From Eubacteriales bacterium (GTDB taxonomy: Bacteria; Bacillota; Clostridia; Lachnospirales; Lachnospiraceae): DNA of 64,000 nucleotides. Position 1 is the first letter of the stretch, and every line of letters starts with the position of its first letter. The DNA lies in contig JAUNSC010000011.1 in the NCBI GenBank assembly GCA_030539395.1, positions 1 through 64,000 on the forward strand. Reading direction: 5' to 3'. The position numbers were made by a program, and so were the translations under genes. The notes under the pieces are model-generated. The model did not search any database. It saw only the letters and a program-made list of their open reading frames with translations, and was not told where the DNA came from. Shown one piece after another: positions 2,255 to 25,606 of this stretch.

Positions 2255-2270
2255 GTTAGATATAACTAAC
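2255..2270. promoter_or_regulatory. 16-bp dyad, copy 1 (candidate metalloregulator operator)
   Basis: GTTAGATATAACTAAC has GTTAG/CTAAC half-sites around a 6-bp AT-rich centre. It matches the element at 2310-2325 in 13 of 16 positions, and the two flank a terminator. The shape recalls DtxR/MntR-type operators more than a classical Fur box. That these sites control the downstream ATPase operon is inference. Confidence 0.45.
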
Positions 2271-2271
2271 A

Positions 2272-2298
2272 AAAGCCGCTTATGACAGGCGGCTTTTT
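2272..2298 (+). terminator. Rho-independent terminator after nrdD
   Basis: AAAGCCGC pairs with GCGGCTTT around a 9-nt loop and runs into a T-tract (2294-2298). It separates nrdD from the metal ATPase operon. Confidence 0.85.
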
Positions 2299-2309
2299 CA
2301 GGACTATAA

Positions 2310-2325
2310 GTTAGACAAAACTAAT
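2310..2325. promoter_or_regulatory. 16-bp dyad, copy 2 (candidate operator)
   Basis: GTTAGACAAAACTAAT is the second copy of the dyad at 2255-2270. It overlaps a weak candidate -35 (TTAGAC, 2311-2316) lying 17 bp from ATTTTA (2334-2339), a position suitable for repression. The promoter match is poor, so this is tentative. Confidence 0.45.
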
Positions 2326-2330
2326 GTGTT

Positions 2331-2438
2331 ATTATTTTAGAAGAGGAGTGTTCAAACAGCAAGGAAATCTACTATAAGGCGGCTTCCGGAAGTAAGAGAA
2401 TCGGAACGGCAACGGTATATCGTACGCAGTTACAATGA
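2331..2438 (+). pseudogene. Fragment of a Fur-family regulator (winged-helix part)
   Basis: Read from 2331 the frame ends with SKEIYYKAASGSKRIGTATV followed by YRTQLQ and a TGA stop at 2436-2438. The run IGTATVYRT with an upstream E-[I/L]-Y is the hallmark of the Fur/PerR DNA-binding domain (typically aEEIYekl...IglATVYRTL). About 35 residues survive; the N-terminus and the whole metal-binding dimerisation domain are missing and there is no start codon. It sits between the paired dyads and the ferrosome-like operon, so it probably is the remains of that operon's own regulator. The match is by eye. Confidence 0.5.
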
Positions 2439-2471
2439 TATAATAATATTTAAACCACAGGAGGAAAAAGT

Positions 2472-2552
2472 ATGAAAAAACATAAGTTTTGGGCATGGGC
2501 AACAGTGGTGTGTTTCATTTTGACAATTTACACAGGATATGAACACAAATAG
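2472..2552 (+). CDS. 26-residue single-span membrane peptide, first gene of the ferrosome-like operon
   Basis: This short ORF follows a strong AGGAGGAAAAA ribosome binding site and encodes a basic start (MKKHK), a hydrophobic stretch of about 17 residues (WAWATVVCFILTIYTGY) and a short tail. It is 21 bp upstream of the FezA-like gene, which has its own AGGAGG, so the three genes read as one unit. I do not recognise a named family. A small membrane component of the same system is plausible from position, but function is unknown. Confidence 0.6.
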   Translation: MKKHKFWAWATVVCFILTIYTGYEHK

Positions 2553-2573
2553 AAAATTTCAGGAGGAAAGATC

Positions 2574-2876
2574 ATGGCAGATTTTAAGTTTAGCAAAGTG
2601 AAAACAGGCATTTTTGCGGCAGGCGTACTGTTTGGTACTGCAGGGATTAAGATTTTGGCAAGTAAAGATGCAAAGAAGCTGTATACAAACTGTACGGCAG
2701 CGGTTCTTCGGGCAAAGGATTATGTGATGAAGACAGCTACTACAATTCAGGAGAATGCAGAAGATATTTATGCGGAAGCAAAACAGATAAACGAGGAAAG
2801 AGCAGCAGAGGATATCTATGAGGAAAGCTGCGAAGATGAGGAGATTGCGGGAGAAGAGGAAGCGGAAAAGGCATGA
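2574..2876 (+). CDS. DUF6110-like small membrane protein, candidate FezA
   Basis: A 100-residue protein. Residues 8-30 form a membrane segment rich in glycine and alanine with a GVLFG (GxxxG) packing motif. The rest is a charged, helical, strongly acidic tail (about residues 60-100). The stop overlaps the start of the ATPase gene by 4 bp, implying translational coupling. As I recall, such proteins are annotated DUF6110 and occur beside P1B ATPases of this type. In Clostridioides difficile, the membrane protein FezA and the P1B6-ATPase FezB are together required for ferrosomes, iron-phosphate storage organelles. The FezA equivalence is inferred from size, topology and linkage. Confidence 0.6.
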   Translation: MADFKFSKVKTGIFAAGVLFGTAGIKILASKDAKKLYTNCTAAVLRAKDYVMKTATTIQENAEDIYAEAKQINEERAAEDIYEESCEDEEIAGEEEAEKA

Positions 2877-4945
2877 GATTTGTCATAAAGCATGAGATGA
2901 AAGGGCGCATTCGGATTCATGTATTGCAAAACAGAATGACATTTGGGGAAGCCGATCAGCTCCAGTATCACCTCAGTATCCAGCCGTATGTTACGTCAGT
3001 AAAAGTACGTGAGAGGACACAGGATATTTCGATTTGCTATACCGGGGACAGAGCTGTACTGATCTCTTTGCTTCGGAAATTCAGATATGATACTGTGGAG
3101 ATACCGGAAGTATATCTGCAGAACTCAGGCAGAGAACTGAATGAGCATTACAAAGAAAAACTGATTCACAGTGTTGTTTTAAGAATGGGAAGCCGCCTGT
3201 TTCTCCCATATTCGGTGAGGGCTGGAATCGCAGTAGTAAAATCAGCCGGATTTCTCTGGAAGGGTATCAAAACCCTGGCGGAAAGAAAACTGGAGGTACC
3301 GGTATTGGATGCTACTGCAATCGGCGTATCTTTGCTGCGTAAAGACTATGATACAGCAGGTTCTGTAATGTTTCTGCTGGGAATAGGTGAGATTCTTGAA
3401 GAGTGGACACATAAGAAATCTGTGGGAGATCTTGCGAGAAGTATGTCGTTGAATGTGAGCAGAGTCTGGCTGCGGCGGCGGGATCAGGAGATTTTGGTTC
3501 CTGCTTCTGAAATCCGGGCGGAGGATCATGTTGTAGTCCATATGGGAAATGTGATTCCGTTCGATGGAGTTGTGACAGAAGGCGATGCTATGGTGAATCA
3601 GTCTTCCTTTACCGGTGAGCCTCTCCCGGTACATAAGAGTAAAGGCGGATATGCCTATGCAGGCACTGTCATTGAGGATGGAGAGCTGACTATCTGTGTC
3701 AAAGAGGTGGGAGGTTCTGGCAGATACGACAAGATTGTGGCGATGATTGAGGAATCAGAAAAACTGAAATCATCGTTGGAGAGCAGGGCGGAGCATTTGG
3801 CGGATAGGCTTGTACCGTATACTTTTGTCGGTACGGGGCTTGTCTGGCTTCTGACAGGCAACACGGCGAAAGCGCTGTCAGTTCTTATGGTGGATTTTTC
3901 CTGTGCTTTGAAATTGGCAATGCCGGTTTCTGTCCTGTCAGCGATTCGGGAAGCAAGCGGATATGGTCTGACGGTAAAAGGCGGAAAATATCTGGAAGCT
4001 GTTGCAGAAGCAGATACAATTGTCTTTGATAAGACGGGAACTTTAACGAAAGCATGCCCTACGGTTGTTGATGTAATTTCTTTTACAGGAGAAGAATCTG
4101 ACGAACTGCTCCGCATTGCTGCGTGTCTGGAAGAACATTTTCCTCACTCCATGGCGAAAGCGGTGGTAAATGCTGCCAGGATAAAAAATCTGGGCCATGA
4201 TGAGATGCATTCAAAAGTGGAATATCTGGTTGCGCATGGCATTTCATCTACTATCGAGGGAAGGAAAGTGATTATCGGAAGTTATCACTTCGTATTTGAG
4301 GATGAAGCGTGCAGGATTCCCACAGGAATGCAGGAGCGATTTGATAATATTCCTACCGGGTATTCCCATTTGTATCTTGCGATTGAGAATGTACTGGCTG
4401 CTGTTATTTGTATTGAGGATCCAATAAGAGAAGAGGCGGGGGCAGTGATCCGGTCATTGAAAAAGGCGGGAATCAGTAAGGTGGTGATGATGACCGGAGA
4501 CAGCGAAAGGACTGCCTGTGAAATTGCACGGAAGATAGGGGTGGATGAATATTATTCCGAGGTCCTTCCTGAGGATAAGGCAGGATTCATAGAGAAAGAA
4601 AAAGCAGCTGGAAGAAAAGTGATCATGATTGGCGACGGAGTAAACGATTCGCCGGCATTATCTGCAGCGGATGCAGGCATTGCCATCAGTGACGGCGCAG
4701 AAATAGCCCGCGAGATTGCTGATATTACGGTGGGTGCAGAGAATCTGTATCAGATTGTTACCCTGAAGGCAATCAGTAATGGTTTAATGAAGCGGATTCA
4801 CCGAAATTACCGCAGGATCGTGGTTATTAACACCGGGCTTATTCTTCTTGGAGTGGGCGGCGTAATTCAGCCCACGACCTCTGCAGTGCTGCATAACGCT
4901 TCAACACTGGCTATCAGTCTGAGAAGTATGGGAAGTTTGACTTAA
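2873..4945 (+). CDS. P1B-type metal-transporting ATPase, candidate ferrosome ATPase FezB
   Basis: A 690-residue heavy-metal P-type ATPase. Visible motifs: actuator TGE (T247-E249), phosphorylation site D386-KTGTLT, hinge G587-DGVND. The transmembrane metal site reads SCALKLAMP (S343-P351) rather than the CPC of copper/zinc pumps, and the usual SEHP element is replaced by EEHFPHS. There is no N-terminal CxxC metal-binding domain; the N-terminus instead carries a basic KGRIRIH motif (residues 10-16), which fits what I recall of the FezB N-terminal arginine/glycine motif. These points support the P1B6 group. It presumably pumps iron into a membrane compartment; a Mn or Fe exporter of the CtpC type is the alternative. 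It overlaps the FezA-like gene by 4 bp. Confidence 0.75.
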   Translation: MRFVIKHEMKGRIRIHVLQNRMTFGEADQLQYHLSIQPYVTSVKVRERTQDISICYTGDRAVLISLLRKFRYDTVEIPEVYLQNSGRELNEHYKEKLIHSVVLRMGSRLFLPYSVRAGIAVVKSAGFLWKGIKTLAERKLEVPVLDATAIGVSLLRKDYDTAGSVMFLLGIGEILEEWTHKKSVGDLARSMSLNVSRVWLRRRDQEILVPASEIRAEDHVVVHMGNVIPFDGVVTEGDAMVNQSSFTGEPLPVHKSKGGYAYAGTVIEDGELTICVKEVGGSGRYDKIVAMIEESEKLKSSLESRAEHLADRLVPYTFVGTGLVWLLTGNTAKALSVLMVDFSCALKLAMPVSVLSAIREASGYGLTVKGGKYLEAVAEADTIVFDKTGTLTKACPTVVDVISFTGEESDELLRIAACLEEHFPHSMAKAVVNAARIKNLGHDEMHSKVEYLVAHGISSTIEGRKVIIGSYHFVFEDEACRIPTGMQERFDNIPTGYSHLYLAIENVLAAVICIEDPIREEAGAVIRSLKKAGISKVVMMTGDSERTACEIARKIGVDEYYSEVLPEDKAGFIEKEKAAGRKVIMIGDGVNDSPALSAADAGIAISDGAEIAREIADITVGAENLYQIVTLKAISNGLMKRIHRNYRRIVVINTGLILLGVGGVIQPTTSAVLHNASTLAISLRSMGSLT

Positions 4946-8984: not shown

Positions 8985-9497
8985 ATGTTAGATAAGAAAG
9001 TAGTAGAATTGTTGAATCAGCAGGTAAACAAGGAGTTTTATTCTGCGTATTTATATCTGGATTTTTCTAATTTCTATTATGACCAGGGACTGGATGGTTT
9101 TGGCAACTGGTACAAGATTCAGGCGCAGGAAGAGCGCGACCATGCAATGTTGATGATTCAGTATCTGCAGAATAATGGTGAAAAGATAGAATTAGATGCT
9201 ATCGATAAACCCCAGGTTGTTCTGGAAAGCGCAAAAGCAGTACTTGGAGAAGGCTTGAAGCATGAACAGTATGTGACAAGCCTGATACATAATATTTATG
9301 ATGCAGCATATTCTGTAAAGGATTTCCGTACAATGCAGTTCCTTGACTGGTTCGTAAAAGAACAGGGCGAGGAGGAGACGAATGCAGATAATCTTGTAAA
9401 GAAATTTGAATTATTTGGTGATGATCCCAAGAGTCTGTATATGCTTGACAGCGAGCTTGGAGCGAGAGTATATTCCGCACCATCTCTGGTTTTATAA
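8985..9497 (+). CDS. ftnA: Ferritin (iron-storage cage protein)
   Basis: 170-residue non-haem ferritin that oxidises Fe(II) and stores it as a mineral inside a 24-subunit shell. The ferroxidase ligands are present: E17 (NKEFYSAYLYLD), E50 and H53 (QEERDH), with the second-half helix containing KEQGEEETNA. The ATG follows AAAGGAGGTTTTTAAA. A Bfd-like [2Fe-2S] protein gene begins 2 bp after the stop, so the pair is one operon for iron storage and release. The putative ferrosome operon lies 4 kb upstream, so the cell may have two iron stores. Confidence 0.96.
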   Translation: MLDKKVVELLNQQVNKEFYSAYLYLDFSNFYYDQGLDGFGNWYKIQAQEERDHAMLMIQYLQNNGEKIELDAIDKPQVVLESAKAVLGEGLKHEQYVTSLIHNIYDAAYSVKDFRTMQFLDWFVKEQGEEETNADNLVKKFELFGDDPKSLYMLDSELGARVYSAPSLVL

Positions 9498-20169: not shown

Positions 20170-20992
20170 AAGTTACTCAACTTTCCCACCAGTAAATCTG
20201 GTGTAAATGCTTGATTTTTCAAGCAAAACAATAAATTAAATTGGTGCATTGACACAAAAATAGCACCTAATCTTTGGTATAATAAGATTACCACATCAAA
20301 ATCATCCCAAAAGAAGAGGTGCTAATCTTATGAGATTCTGGGGACCGGAATTGATGCAATCGGGATGGTCAAGCAGCTAAAACAGCGCTACAATTACCAG
20401 GGCAAATATTATACGCTGCCGGAACTGCGCAAATTTGTACGTTTTGAAGGCAGTAAAAATATTTTGGGTTCTGTTATTGTGACAACCAAAACGGGAATCC
20501 CGGTTAAGATTGTCATTGTACATAACCGTAATAAAAAGAGTGAGTGCCTGTACCTCCTTAGCACGGACTGCAGCCTCAGCGATGGGGAAATCGTGCGCAT
20601 TTATGGAAATAGATGGTCAATCGAATGTTTTTTCAAAGCATCTAAATCCTTTTTGAAACTCGGTACTGAATTTCAGAGCCGTACCTATGATGCCATGGTC
20701 AGCCATACGGCGATTGTATTCACCAGATACACTATACTGGAATGGATACGCCGCAATGAAAATGATGAGAAAACCTATGGCGAATTATTCTTCATGTTCT
20801 GCGAAGATATCCAGGACATGGATTTAACAAATGCCCTCCAGAGCCTGATGGCTTTGTTTGTGGAGCATATTTCAACACTGTCAGCAGACATCACAGCCTG
20901 CATAAAAAGTAAAGTAACCGATTGGATGAACTCTCAGGCCGCATTTATACAGGCTTTATTTAGAAATATCTGCTGGGAAAGTTGAGTAAGTT
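20170..20992. mobile_element. Internally deleted IS4-family insertion sequence
   Basis: 19-bp terminal inverted repeats, AAGTTACTCAACTTTCCCA at 20170-20188 and its complement at 20974-20992, agree at 18 of 19 positions. The 823-bp length is far below the 1.4-1.6 kb of IS4-type elements. I cannot identify a target-site duplication. A promoter-like TTGACA and a TATAAT lie in the left end. Confidence 0.7.
20329..20985 (+). pseudogene. IS4-family transposase, internally deleted
   Basis: The start region (ATG 20329, MRFWGPELMQSG) runs into a stop, while the C-terminal ~210 residues remain open in another frame from about 20362. That part holds the IS4 YREK signature exactly spaced, Y-x2-R-x3-E-x6-K in YGNRWSIECFFKASK, including the catalytic glutamate. 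The N-terminal domain and at least the first catalytic aspartate are gone, so the protein cannot be active. Confidence 0.75.
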
Positions 20993-21056
20993 AGTGTACA
21001 AATAAAAAAAGTTGGGTTATACTATAAAAGAACAAAAAAAGAAAGGACGTGAGAAT

Positions 21057-22178
21057 ATGTCAAATTTCATAAAATCTATTGATATAAAATCATTTCGTGG
21101 CATACGTTCTTTGAAACTGGATGACATACAGCAGATAAATATACTGACTGGTGACAACAATAGTGGTAAAACAAGTGTTTTGGAAATATTAGAAAATTTT
21201 GAAAGTCCGGACTATGTAGGAGGCTGGAGACCCTTGCTGAGAAGAGACAGCAGAATACCATCGACTTGGGGAATTTCATTTTATGACGGTTTTTACAATC
21301 TGTTTGATATTGATTCTGAAAACAAAATAGTTGAGTATAGGATTTCTACTTTATCTGAAATGGTGACAGTTTCGCTTAGTGCAAAGACCGTGGAGGAAGA
21401 ATTAACAGAGGAAGAGTACAATAATGCAATTGGTATGTCTTACAAATACTCAGGTGATGATAAAGACATGGACAATTCCATTTTATATCCGGTAAAGAAA
21501 ATGGAATTGGAGGTAAGAATAAATGGCGCTGTAAGCGATACCTCAGAGATATATGAAGGACAAAGAGTATTAAAATTAAGTAAAATCGGAATATTAAAAG
21601 AGTATGAGAGAAAGAAAGTAGTATATATCTCTCCAATAAGACATGCTGAAGGAAGTGTGTATTTAAGTGAGATACTGAATAATCCGGATCTATATGAAGA
21701 AATGCTCGTGGTTCTGAAAGAATATGATGAGGATATTATCAGTATTAACTATGATAATGATGATAACAGGTCAGGCGGCAGGGGAGTATATAAGATTTTG
21801 TCAAAAACTCATAAGAAAGCATTGCCGCTTAATGTATACGGCGATGGAATGAAAAAAGCTGTCTTACTGATGAGTGCTGTTGTCAAAGCTAAGAATGGAG
21901 TATTGTTATTGGATGAATTTGAAACGGCAATTCATACGTCTGCCATGGACAGAACATTTAAGTGGATATTGGAAACATGTGTAAAATTGAATGTACAGGT
22001 ATTTATGACATCTCACAGTAAGGAGGCAATTGATAAGGTTCTGAAATGTTCGCCGGATATTCTGGATAAAATTGCTGTTTATACACTGTATAAGGATGAG
22101 TTGGGTTCCTCTGTCAGGAGATTGTCAGGAAAAAAGGCGATTGAAGTACAAGATGATATGGGATTGGAGTTGAGATAA
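21057..22178 (+). CDS. AAA-family (OLD/AriA-like) ATPase, candidate defence protein
   Basis: 373 residues from the ATG at 21057, chosen for GAAAGGACGTGAGAAT upstream. It is an SMC/ABC-type ATPase of the AAA_15/AAA_21 group: N-terminal KSIDIKSFRGIRSLKL, Walker A GDNNSGKT (G32-T39), a nonstandard signature region NVYGDGMKKA and Walker B LLLDEFE (D286-E287), followed by MTSHSKEAID (the His switch). It has no nuclease domain of its own. Its partner, 1 bp downstream, supplies a TOPRIM-like domain. This architecture recalls PARIS (AriA/AriB) and split OLD systems. AT-rich compared with the flanks. Confidence 0.75.
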   Translation: MSNFIKSIDIKSFRGIRSLKLDDIQQINILTGDNNSGKTSVLEILENFESPDYVGGWRPLLRRDSRIPSTWGISFYDGFYNLFDIDSENKIVEYRISTLSEMVTVSLSAKTVEEELTEEEYNNAIGMSYKYSGDDKDMDNSILYPVKKMELEVRINGAVSDTSEIYEGQRVLKLSKIGILKEYERKKVVYISPIRHAEGSVYLSEILNNPDLYEEMLVVLKEYDEDIISINYDNDDNRSGGRGVYKILSKTHKKALPLNVYGDGMKKAVLLMSAVVKAKNGVLLLDEFETAIHTSAMDRTFKWILETCVKLNVQVFMTSHSKEAIDKVLKCSPDILDKIAVYTLYKDELGSSVRRLSGKKAIEVQDDMGLELR

Positions 22179-22179
22179 A

Positions 22180-22929
22180 ATGAGAAGTATAATTTTATGT
22201 GAAGGCTCCACAGATTACGTTCTGATTCAATATTTCCTGAGAAAAGCATATGAGTGGGATGATTTTAAGGAGAATAGTGCACTGAGGAACCGCTTCGGAA
22301 TGGCAAGGATTTTGAAGCATTCCCAGACTGGTGATGAAGTGACCGTTACAGGGTGTCGCGGGTCCAGTGGCATAGTTACGGGATTTAAATTCATTTTAGA
22401 AAGTAACAGTATAGCTGGGACAGAGAACGAAAGATATCGAAATATAGTTATTATAACAGACAGGGATGAAGTTGGAACAGAAAGTGAATTTGCAAATGAA
22501 ATACAAAAGATCCTGAATGAGAAAGACGTAATCTGGGAATCACATATTCAGAATGATGTATGGATTTCATGTACACATCAAAATGCACATGGAAGAGAAA
22601 TCCAGTTCAGAATATTATTATTGGTAATTCCGTTTGAAGAGACAGGGGCATTAGAGACTTTCCTCCTGAATTCGATAGCAAAAGATGATACATATGATGC
22701 AAATCTGATAGAAAAGTGCAATGGATTTGTTGATAATATTGATGGTGAAAAACGATATTTGAATAAACGCAGATATGTTACAAAAGCAAAATTTGATGTG
22801 TATTTTTCAATCCGGACTCCGGCAGGACAGTTTGTGGAACGGCAGAATGTGCTAAGAGGAGTCAAGTGGGAGAAATATACAGATATACAGGCATGTTTTA
22901 AAAAGTTGGGAGATTTATCAGGAAAGTAG
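22180..22929 (+). CDS. DUF3226-like TOPRIM protein, partner of the AAA ATPase
   Basis: 249 residues. TOPRIM motifs are visible: the first strand with LCEGSTD (E8, D12) and the second with IITDRDEVG (D94, D96). This is the layout of DUF3226/DUF4435 proteins, which act as nuclease effectors in ATPase-coupled phage defence such as PARIS AriB. The gene begins 1 bp after the ATPase stop, so the pair is co-translated, and a strong terminator follows. Defence function is inferred; a DNA-repair pair is the alternative. Confidence 0.7.
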   Translation: MRSIILCEGSTDYVLIQYFLRKAYEWDDFKENSALRNRFGMARILKHSQTGDEVTVTGCRGSSGIVTGFKFILESNSIAGTENERYRNIVIITDRDEVGTESEFANEIQKILNEKDVIWESHIQNDVWISCTHQNAHGREIQFRILLLVIPFEETGALETFLLNSIAKDDTYDANLIEKCNGFVDNIDGEKRYLNKRRYVTKAKFDVYFSIRTPAGQFVERQNVLRGVKWEKYTDIQACFKKLGDLSGK

Positions 22930-23621: not shown

Positions 23622-23738
23622 ATGCCAATTAATGACAAGGACATACTCCAGAGAATTGCTGAAAACCTGTTTGAAAAAAAGCTTATTTCATATGAAGAAT
23701 ATCTGCGTATGCTCGCGCAGATTGAGAGGAATGGATGA
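23622..23738 (+). CDS. 38-residue SHOCT-like protein preceding the recombinase
   Basis: Short charged protein beginning MPINDKDILQRIAENL; the motif LFEKKLISYEEYLRML resembles the SHOCT oligomerisation/binding module. Its stop overlaps the recombinase start by 4 bp (ATGA), implying coupled translation. Small proteins of this type commonly precede serine recombinases in clostridial elements; a role as accessory or directionality factor is possible but unproven. The ribosome site GAGAGGCAGG is moderate. Confidence 0.65.
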   Translation: MPINDKDILQRIAENLFEKKLISYEEYLRMLAQIERNG

Positions 23739-25606
23739 TGCCGGATAACAATCTGAAAGCAGTCATCTATTGCCGCTGCAGTACGGAGGAAGAGAGCCAG
23801 CAAAATGCACTTGTCCAGCAGGTTAAAGAGGCGCGGGAGGTTGTCCGTGCCAATGGCTGGCAGCTTGTCGGGGAATATGTGGAGCTAAAGAGTGGCACAA
23901 CGACGAAAGGGCGTGATGAATATCAGAAGTTATACCGCGATTTGGCTGAGAAAAATTTTGACATCGTTGTGATTAAAAGTCAGGACCGGCTTATGCGTAA
24001 TGTGAAAGACTGGTATCTCTTTTTGGATCGTATGGTGAATCAGGGAAAACGGCTATACCTGTACATAGAAAAGAAATTTTATACTTCGGAGGATTCACTG
24101 ATTACAGGAATAAAGGCGATACTTGCAGAAGATTACAGCAAGGAACTCTCTAAGAAGATCAATAATGCGCATCGGCACCGTCAGACAGAGGGAACGAATA
24201 TTATTCTGACGGGGAATGCGTATGGATTTCGGAAGACTGCAGACAAAAGGATAGAGCTTATTGAGGAGGAAGCGAAAGTAAAGCGCGCTATGTACAGGCT
24301 GTGTGCTCAGGGGTGTGGATGCAGAGCGATTGCGAATATTCTGTATGAAAAGGGATATCGTAACCGTCAGGGAAAGCGTATTTCTGAAACCATGATACGC
24401 CGTATTATCCGTAACCCCATTAATAAAGGAACGGTTGTGTTCAACAAAACGCACTATGATTTTGAAACTAAGCAGACTATACAACAGCCTCCGGATAAAT
24501 GGATAATACACGAAAACATGGTTCCAAAGACTGTGTCAGATGAACTCTGGGGGCAGGCGAATGCAGAGATGAATCGCCGTAGAGTGACAGGAAATACGGC
24601 GGGTAAATATCCAAAAGGCAGCAATCCCGGTAAATATAATCTGTCGGGAAAGATGAAATGTGGATACTGTGAAGAAACCTTTTACCGAAAATTTCGTTAT
24701 AATAGTTCTGGTCAACAGGTAGTTGAATGGTGCTGCAGCCGGTATTTATATGAAGGGCGTATAGATTTAGAGAGAGCCAGAAGAAAAAATCCGCAGGCAC
24801 CGGAGGATGCACTGGGATGCGATAATATTCACCTCAATGAAGAAAAGTTGAATACAGTTCTGGAGGATGTCTGCAAAGAATATTACGACACCAGAAATGA
24901 TAAAAATGTGATTGACAGCGCGGTAGAATTGCTTCGCAGAGCACTTACATCTGCACCGGCCGGAATTTTAGAGAAAGAACTGCAGGAGAAATTAAGTGCT
25001 CTGGAAAGCAGAAAGAATCTTCTTATGGAAAAGCTGTTAGATGGCGTCATATCGGACAGCGATTTTAAAAAGAAACGGAGGGATATTGAGGAAAAGATAA
25101 GCCGTATACAAGAGAAACTGAAAGAAAATGAGAGTAAAAAGACACTGGAAGAAACGGTAGAACAGCGTATTACACAGATTAAAGCCAGACTGCAGCAGGA
25201 TATCATGAGGAGTGCGCTGGTAGATCAGATGCTGGAGGATATCAGCAGCATTATTGTATTTCCTGAATACTTGATTATACGGTTTGAACCGCTTCATATT
25301 TTCGAATTGAATAAAGAACAAAACAAGATAGCTGCAATGGTGTCGAAAGAAAAACATTTTTCAATTGTCGTGGATATAAAAGATATTTTTGACGGTAAAG
25401 CTTATATAAGAGAAGAAAAAGAACATATTATCCAGCGGATGAAAGAAAAACCGGATATCACGGTCAAACAGTTGGCAAAAGAAATGGATATTTCATTATC
25501 GTCCTGTCTGTACAGGGTTAATACGTTGAAAAAAGAAGGGCTGATTCAGTTTGAAGGAAAAGGCGGCCATGGAAAGTGGGTAGTATTGGCAGATCATTCC
25601 TCATGA
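23735..25606 (+). CDS. Large serine recombinase with extra C-terminal winged helix
   Basis: 623 residues. Resolvase domain with catalytic S16 (IYCRCSTEE) and the arginine cluster SQDRLMRN; recombinase domain (GNAYGFRKTADKRIEL...RRIIRNPINKG, about 160-265); zinc ribbon C309-x2-C312 with the second pair in WCCSRY; coiled coil (about 385-475). Beyond the usual end, residues ~550-620 contain EEKEHIIQRMKEKPDITVKQ and LAKEMDISLSSCLYRVNTLKKEG, a winged-helix DNA-binding module. It should catalyse integration/excision of this element. All catalytic motifs are intact. Confidence 0.92.
   Translation: MMPDNNLKAVIYCRCSTEEESQQNALVQQVKEAREVVRANGWQLVGEYVELKSGTTTKGRDEYQKLYRDLAEKNFDIVVIKSQDRLMRNVKDWYLFLDRMVNQGKRLYLYIEKKFYTSEDSLITGIKAILAEDYSKELSKKINNAHRHRQTEGTNIILTGNAYGFRKTADKRIELIEEEAKVKRAMYRLCAQGCGCRAIANILYEKGYRNRQGKRISETMIRRIIRNPINKGTVVFNKTHYDFETKQTIQQPPDKWIIHENMVPKTVSDELWGQANAEMNRRRVTGNTAGKYPKGSNPGKYNLSGKMKCGYCEETFYRKFRYNSSGQQVVEWCCSRYLYEGRIDLERARRKNPQAPEDALGCDNIHLNEEKLNTVLEDVCKEYYDTRNDKNVIDSAVELLRRALTSAPAGILEKELQEKLSALESRKNLLMEKLLDGVISDSDFKKKRRDIEEKISRIQEKLKENESKKTLEETVEQRITQIKARLQQDIMRSALVDQMLEDISSIIVFPEYLIIRFEPLHIFELNKEQNKIAAMVSKEKHFSIVVDIKDIFDGKAYIREEKEHIIQRMKEKPDITVKQLAKEMDISLSSCLYRVNTLKKEGLIQFEGKGGHGKWVVLADHSS

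Follow-up and report, generated by a model that had tools for sequence, protein, structure and literature searches.

The 64 kb stretch of DNA analysed here (the whole of which is referred to as the window) contains near its beginning three closely spaced open reading frames (ORFs), which a preliminary description had taken for a candidate operon of the iron-storing organelle known as the ferrosome. An ORF check bore out the proposed arrangement, including the 4 bp overlap (ATGA) of the last two genes:

2472-2552, + strand: gene of a 26-amino-acid (aa) micropeptide with a single transmembrane (TM) segment, related to the N-terminal unit of DUF6219 (PF19727, E=1.2e-5) and conserved beside fezA
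2574-2876, + strand: fezA homologue encoding a 100 aa DUF6110 (PacL-like) protein (PF19605, E=3.9e-38) with a TM helix and a long helix with an acidic end
2873-4945, + strand: fezB homologue encoding a 690 aa P1B6-type ATPase (identified by Pfam and NCBIfam matches, by the tree and by its identity to the homologue in Clostridioides difficile HC132)

All three ORFs are preceded by a ribosome site (CAGGAGG in front of the micropeptide ORF, AGGAGG in front of the 100 aa ORF). The short motifs on which the preliminary description had relied were also present: SCALKLAMP in the ATPase, KGRIRIH at its N-terminus, and GxxxG at residues 17-21 of the 100 aa protein.

FezA and FezB of C. difficile are described as required for ferrosomes and as repressed by Fur (PMC12574912). 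They are encoded by CD630_05910-05920 (PMC11651100), and the system has been named fezXAB (PMC11533511). The genome of strain HC132 contained exactly one DUF6110 place, located directly before a P1B6-type ATPase, and on account of this uniqueness the locus was equated with fezAB. The window resembles it in having FezA (44% identity, DUF6110) directly ahead of FezB (58% identity), and differs from it in the additional micropeptide and in the GTTAG-N6-CTAAY operators described below. Judged by its sequence, the unit is a FezAB operon by descent, having a common ancestor with C. difficile fezAB.

The 690 aa protein was recognized by Pfam as an E1-E2 ATPase (E=1.5e-36) and assigned by NCBIfam to the heavy-metal group. 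Its fourth TM segment (TM4) carries SCA, the mark of P1B6 ATPases, and not CPC, and in TM6 the HN motif (H674-N675) is invariant in all 41 aligned rows. HN in TM6 is given as a P1B6 feature, whereas CPC in TM4 marks P1B1, P1B2 and CtpC (PMC9374683). A quick maximum-likelihood tree was built from 77 of 81 ATPases, with C. difficile represented by strain HC132 only; four incomplete sequences (L060, L075, L078 and L082) were left out. Branch support was assessed solely by the Shimodaira-Hasegawa-like approximate likelihood ratio test (SH-aLRT), and 20 of the 74 inner branches were left open. The window FezB fell in an 11-row set (SH-aLRT 98) nested in a 25-row set in which C. difficile is also found (98). 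At support 100, the rows with the SCA pattern were split from those with CPC or CPH, to which the mycobacterial L083 and L084 belong; L059 and L072, although part of the FezB clade, deviate from the SCA pattern used for the grouping. The ATPase thus sits with the C. difficile FezB homologue and outside the CPC-type pumps, and on the tree together with the TM4 motif a CtpC-like Mn/Zn exporter was rejected as its identity. By sequence and by fold alike, its best-matching solved structures are KdpB and P1B pumps for copper, zinc and cadmium; none of the structure matches listed was named as a P1B6 pump. Its nearest named rows in the tree are Mediterraneibacter, CHKCI001 and Coprococcus comes, from which we infer a host of Lachnospiraceae type and, from kinship alone, a gut commensal.

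The statement that this ATPase has no N-terminal metal-binding domain proved to be wrong: a domain resembling HMA_2 is present, and what the protein does not have is CxxC. The HMA_2 profile (PF19991) was matched at E<=0.1 by 20 of 39 aligned relatives (best 7.2e-10) and by the window ATPase with E=0.028, which falls short of the cut-off. In the structural model of the latter, residues 3-69 form a beta-beta-alpha-beta-beta-alpha arrangement at a predicted local distance difference test score of 83-91. Taken together with the model, these matches indicate that the window FezB probably has an HMA-like N-terminal domain, devoid of CxxC and carrying the basic GRIRIH stretch.

Sister to the FezA-type clade stood the SCA-type ATPases of L076, L080 and L085 (proteobacterial or related), a likeness to the Gram-negative fez clusters with FezC, to which these three rows presumably belong. 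Unlike in the window, a FezA homologue was not found upstream of any of them. FezC of the Gram-negative clusters is reported to be a cytochrome related to DUF4405 (PMC10979944); none was noticed beside the window operon, where no search aimed at FezC was made.

The assignment of the 100 aa protein to DUF6110 was unambiguous (129.9 bits against a Pfam cut-off of 26). Its model consists of two helices, 4-28 and 31-99, and its C-terminus is acidic, without a His/Asp metal-binding motif. DUF6110 is described as related to DUF1490/PacL and as typically encoded with P1B6 ATPases (PMC9374683, PMC13043812), and by analogy with PacL a scaffold role for FezA may reasonably be supposed. The family was found in 164 of 397 sampled genomes of the Lachnospiraceae and in none of 14 control genomes. 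A FezB-type ATPase adjoined DUF6110 in 18 of the first 20 relatives examined, the contigs of the two exceptions, L032 and L042, measuring 3.2 and 3.0 kb. Named genomes, scanned for the ATPase, pointed the same way: among the best 80 loci, 50 were examined for upstream FezA, and a homologue was present in 35. Divided by type, and counting the matches listed, FezA was upstream of 35 of 37 FezA-type loci, as against 0 of 13 other ATPases; upstream of the two misses, L044 and L047, the sequence extends for 608 and 173 bp. The small genes therefore recur at the same place in relatives, and this recurrence, with the grouping of the ATPase next to the C. difficile FezB homologue, supports the proposal of a ferrosome operon. 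The Methanobrevibacter loci L045 and L046 are FezA-FezB pairs, and L044 and L047, of the same genus, have FezB with upstream sequence too short to judge.

Against PF19727 the 26 aa peptide scored 25.5 bits (cut-off 27), and only positions 1-24 of the 69 were covered; by this match the micropeptide would be a relative of DUF6219, not filed as a member. The mean hydropathy of residues 6-22 is 1.6, which is sufficient for one TM helix. Thirteen of its 26 columns were invariant over 7 sequences. Among 29 copies beside fezA, the differences per codon position were 0.21/0.11/0.50, and because of this pattern the micropeptide appears to be under selection as a protein; on sequence evidence it is a real, selected gene. 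A 7-row profile was used to search the 397 genomes, and hits of at least 40 bits were regarded as strong. There were 64 such places, of which 53 lie 31-292 bp upstream of a DUF6110 match on the same strand. K2, H4, W7, A8, T21 and G22 were invariant in all 35 distinct copies beside fezA, M17 and H25 were kept in 34, and C14 in 33. In the named genomes the micropeptide accompanied 8 of 35 fezA loci among the matches listed (one of them weakly, at 25 bits), and its carriers include [Clostridium] citroniae and Enterocloster alcoholdehydrogenati. Eleven of the 64 strong copies are off-pattern: that of L156 follows fezB in a rearranged locus, that of L164 precedes a divergent fezA, that of L154 stands directly before a ferritin gene (confirmed by Pfam), and the remaining 8 are discussed below. 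No paper naming DUF6219 was found. Among the weaker profile hits, DUF6219-like frames of about 60-95 aa (e.g. G168:C1 and G293:C2) were also seen; they carry two micropeptide-like units about 80 bp apart, and often there are several per genome.

The region between the operon and its upstream neighbour holds the following features:

64-2196: nrdD, the upstream neighbour of the operon
2255-2270, no strand assigned: operator-like palindrome GTTAGATATAACTAAC (site 1), an exact match to RTTAGN6CTAAY
2271-2297, + strand: hairpin followed by a T run, the probable nrdD terminator, lying between sites 1 and 2 (folding energy of the RNA -14.7 kcal/mol, z -4.3)
2310-2325, no strand assigned: operator-like palindrome GTTAGACAAAACTAAT (site 2), an exact match to RTTAGN6CTAAY
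2328-2435, + strand: remnant of a Fur-half gene (DNA-binding part only), a frame without ATG, GTG or TTG that resembles the L024 gene

A consensus terminator scan found none. The two palindromes are the only exact matches to RTTAG-N6-CTAAY in the 64 kb, where 0.15 would be expected, and none of 100 shuffled sequences contained two. The motif was present in 17 of 44 upstream regions, compared with 0.21 expected from mononucleotide shuffles; when L135 (the window again) and L131 (not beside fezA) are set aside, the count is 16 of 42. Allowing a spacing of 4-8 bp between TTAG and CTAA gave no more loci than 6 bp (18 of 44 either way). In the named set the motif preceded 5 of 35 loci among the matches listed (0.19 expected), and of the spacings 0-12 only 6 was represented. 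Seventeen of the 18 sites in the window's own genome lie within about 320 bp upstream of a called ORF start (one touching the start), and one is inside an ORF. They precede, among others, feoB (at 56 bp) and a DUF3793 gene with a flavodoxin gene (two sites), all confirmed by Pfam, and presumably also an ABC exporter pair and a DUF2325 gene; we take the genes behind further sites to be methyltransferase-like and others without evident iron link. As a set, the genes behind the motif look like an iron-starvation regulon. Since the motif also precedes feoB and the flavodoxin operon, the fez operon is probably controlled by iron through this predicted operator, which differs from the classical Fur box. 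Candidates for its repressor elsewhere in the genome are two full Fur-family genes, on contigs C45 and C13, and a DtxR-family gene, likewise on C45.

Other searches of the control region gave little. Halves of a classical Fur box (TGATAAT/ATTATCA) occurred in 12 of 44 upstream regions against 7.1 expected, which is unconvincing; a promoter scan (2 sites, 1.2 expected) was uninformative, and a search of the window allowing 1 mismatch to the motif returned 5 sites against 6.4 expected, no better than chance. GTTAG-N6-CTAAY was not found before fezA of HC132, where the best Fur-like site has 2 mismatches.

The remnant at 2328-2435 shares 71% identity over 31 aa with a Fur-family gene that is intact and precedes fezA in L024, and it matched positions 24-49 of the 121 of the FUR profile with E=0.0032, below the cut-off. 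Four intact relatives matched only the first 60-65 of these positions, that is, the DNA-binding half. Of the 30 loci L123-L152, 10 have a Fur-half gene upstream of the micropeptide, and the window (L135) is an eleventh, decayed case; in L026 and L029, two loci of the same genus, no Fur-half match was obtained. Where it is intact, as in several relatives, this gene may serve as a regulator dedicated to fez. The Fur-half gene, a possible FezX, had no match at E<=1e-3 in L052, the locus of C. difficile. The micropeptide was not found in HC132 at E<=1 and was rejected as FezX. Two tandem DtxR-like genes (named by eye) stand ahead of fezA on the reverse strand of L032, which suggests that other regulators can take over the fez operon in relatives.

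From these data the following working of the system can be proposed. Under iron starvation a repressor would leave the two GTTAG-N6-CTAAY sites, and the operon would be made together with feoB and flavodoxin. FezA, by its TM helix and long cytoplasmic helix, would gather FezB in one membrane patch, as PacL does with mycobacterial P1B pumps. When iron returns, FezB would pump Fe(II) through the site formed by SCA of TM4 and HN of TM6 into a membrane-bound compartment, where it would be stored as iron phosphate. The micropeptide, placed in the same membrane, could tune or stabilise FezB in the manner proposed for KdpF and KdpABC. KdpF is a membrane peptide of about 30 aa encoded with the KdpFABC P-type ATPase (PMC3618439), and its likeness to the micropeptide, as a short membrane protein whose gene accompanies that of a P-type ATPase, is one of working only. 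We estimate at about 0.78 the probability that the locus is a FezAB ferrosome operon sharing descent with that of C. difficile, supplemented by the 26-residue micropeptide and working as outlined. The genes, their homology, synteny and phylogeny and the recurrence of the operator are observed; the functions of FezA and FezB are taken from the C. difficile papers. A bolder proposal, put forward tentatively and at somewhat less than even odds, is that the micropeptide is a third, undescribed structural or regulatory subunit, which would bind FezB (or FezA) and tune iron pumping or compartment formation in a large share of the ferrosome systems of the family; with the Fur-half regulator and the GTTAG-N6-CTAAY operator it would then distinguish a separately controlled type of ferrosome in the Lachnospiraceae.

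Several observations weigh against the ferrosome operon as proposed. Ferrosome formation and iron as the substrate are, for the window system, predicted from the genes, and HC132 differs from the strain in which the fez genes were tested. Some of the motif-bearing regions are close kin (L139 and L145), and the counts given above are not independent, the sites being shared by descent. The motif was not found in 30 of the 35 named fezA loci among the matches listed, and in the window's own genome its 18 sites compare with 11 for a reversed control, a modest enrichment. With regard to the micropeptide, a strong copy stood just upstream in 53 of 150 fezA loci compared (those listed of the 164 DUF6110 genomes) and the other 97, about two thirds, had none directly upstream; 8 of the 64 strong copies are away from fez and ferritin genes and, by eye, have no evident iron link; and, as noted, the peptide was not found in HC132.

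These last points would be expected if the 26 aa gene lay outside the ferrosome system and were a general small membrane protein of DUF6219 type, hitch-hiking before fezA and acting perhaps as a translational leader. The two-unit DUF6219-like relatives found elsewhere fit such a view, as does the copy beside fezA in L166, in which a stop ends the frame after 15 residues. The explanation is nevertheless doubtful, since 53 of the 64 strong copies keep the same position and orientation relative to fezA, even displaced copies (L156, L164 and L154) remain by fezB, fezA or ferritin, and six residues are invariant in every distinct copy. The preliminary description had suggested that the first small gene is an additional component; this holds in so far as the gene is real, selected and recurrent ahead of fezA, but it is accessory, found in about one third of the loci, and not universal.

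The possibility that the pair acts at the plasma membrane, with FezA as a PacL-like scaffold and FezB expelling excess Fe, Zn or Mn, so that no organelle is made, draws on the mycobacterial PacL-CtpC system. There, too, a small TM protein with a helical tail is encoded with a P1B ATPase, L083 and L084 have the same TM6 HN motif, and PacL1-CtpC is reported to form zinc efflux foci (PMC9374683, PMC13043812). CtpC, a P1B6-like pump with PacL, exports zinc; a scaffolded pump thus does not necessarily form an organelle, which is a further point against the ferrosome. In contrast to PacL-CtpC, which has CPC in TM4 and a DUF1490 partner, the window has SCA, a DUF6110 partner whose acidic end is without the His/Asp motif, and a place in a separate tree group, its close relatives being FezB. 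In addition, the operator common to feoB and flavodoxin suggests induction at low iron, which would suit an exporter of excess metal poorly, and we regard efflux as unlikely. The decay of the Fur-half regulator, which is intact in several relatives, could also mean that the operon is silent or misregulated, but this is improbable, as both exact operator sites and three intact ORFs with ribosome sites persist, the genome has the Fur- and DtxR-family genes mentioned above, and L026 and L029 similarly gave no Fur-half match.

Two lines that were kept apart in the papers found, DUF6110 as a PacL-like scaffold of pumps and DUF6110 as FezA, are joined by the present analysis. No paper naming DUF6110 as FezA was found by a search outside which the primary ferrosome papers lay, and the literature found on DUF6110 mentions neither ferrosomes nor FezB; at the level of a listing, ferrosome and Lachnospiraceae are named together in existing literature. 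Ferrosomes are reported to aid C. difficile under host iron limitation (PMC12574912). If bacteria related to common gut commensals have this system as well, as the count of DUF6110 genomes would allow, the storage of iron may be common to several of the competitors for iron in the gut. The micropeptide, the operator and the Fur-half gene offer concrete handles on the system.

Two further features of the window were noted:

8985-9497, + strand: ferritin gene (PF00210, E=3.4e-36)
21012-22929, + strand: OLD/AAA-like ATPase gene followed by a TOPRIM-like gene (named by eye)

The first confirms the earlier statement that this genome has ferritin as well as fezAB. The second may possibly be a mobile defence pair; a transposase-like piece (20365-20985) and a serine recombinase-like gene (23735-25606), both named by eye, are located near it.

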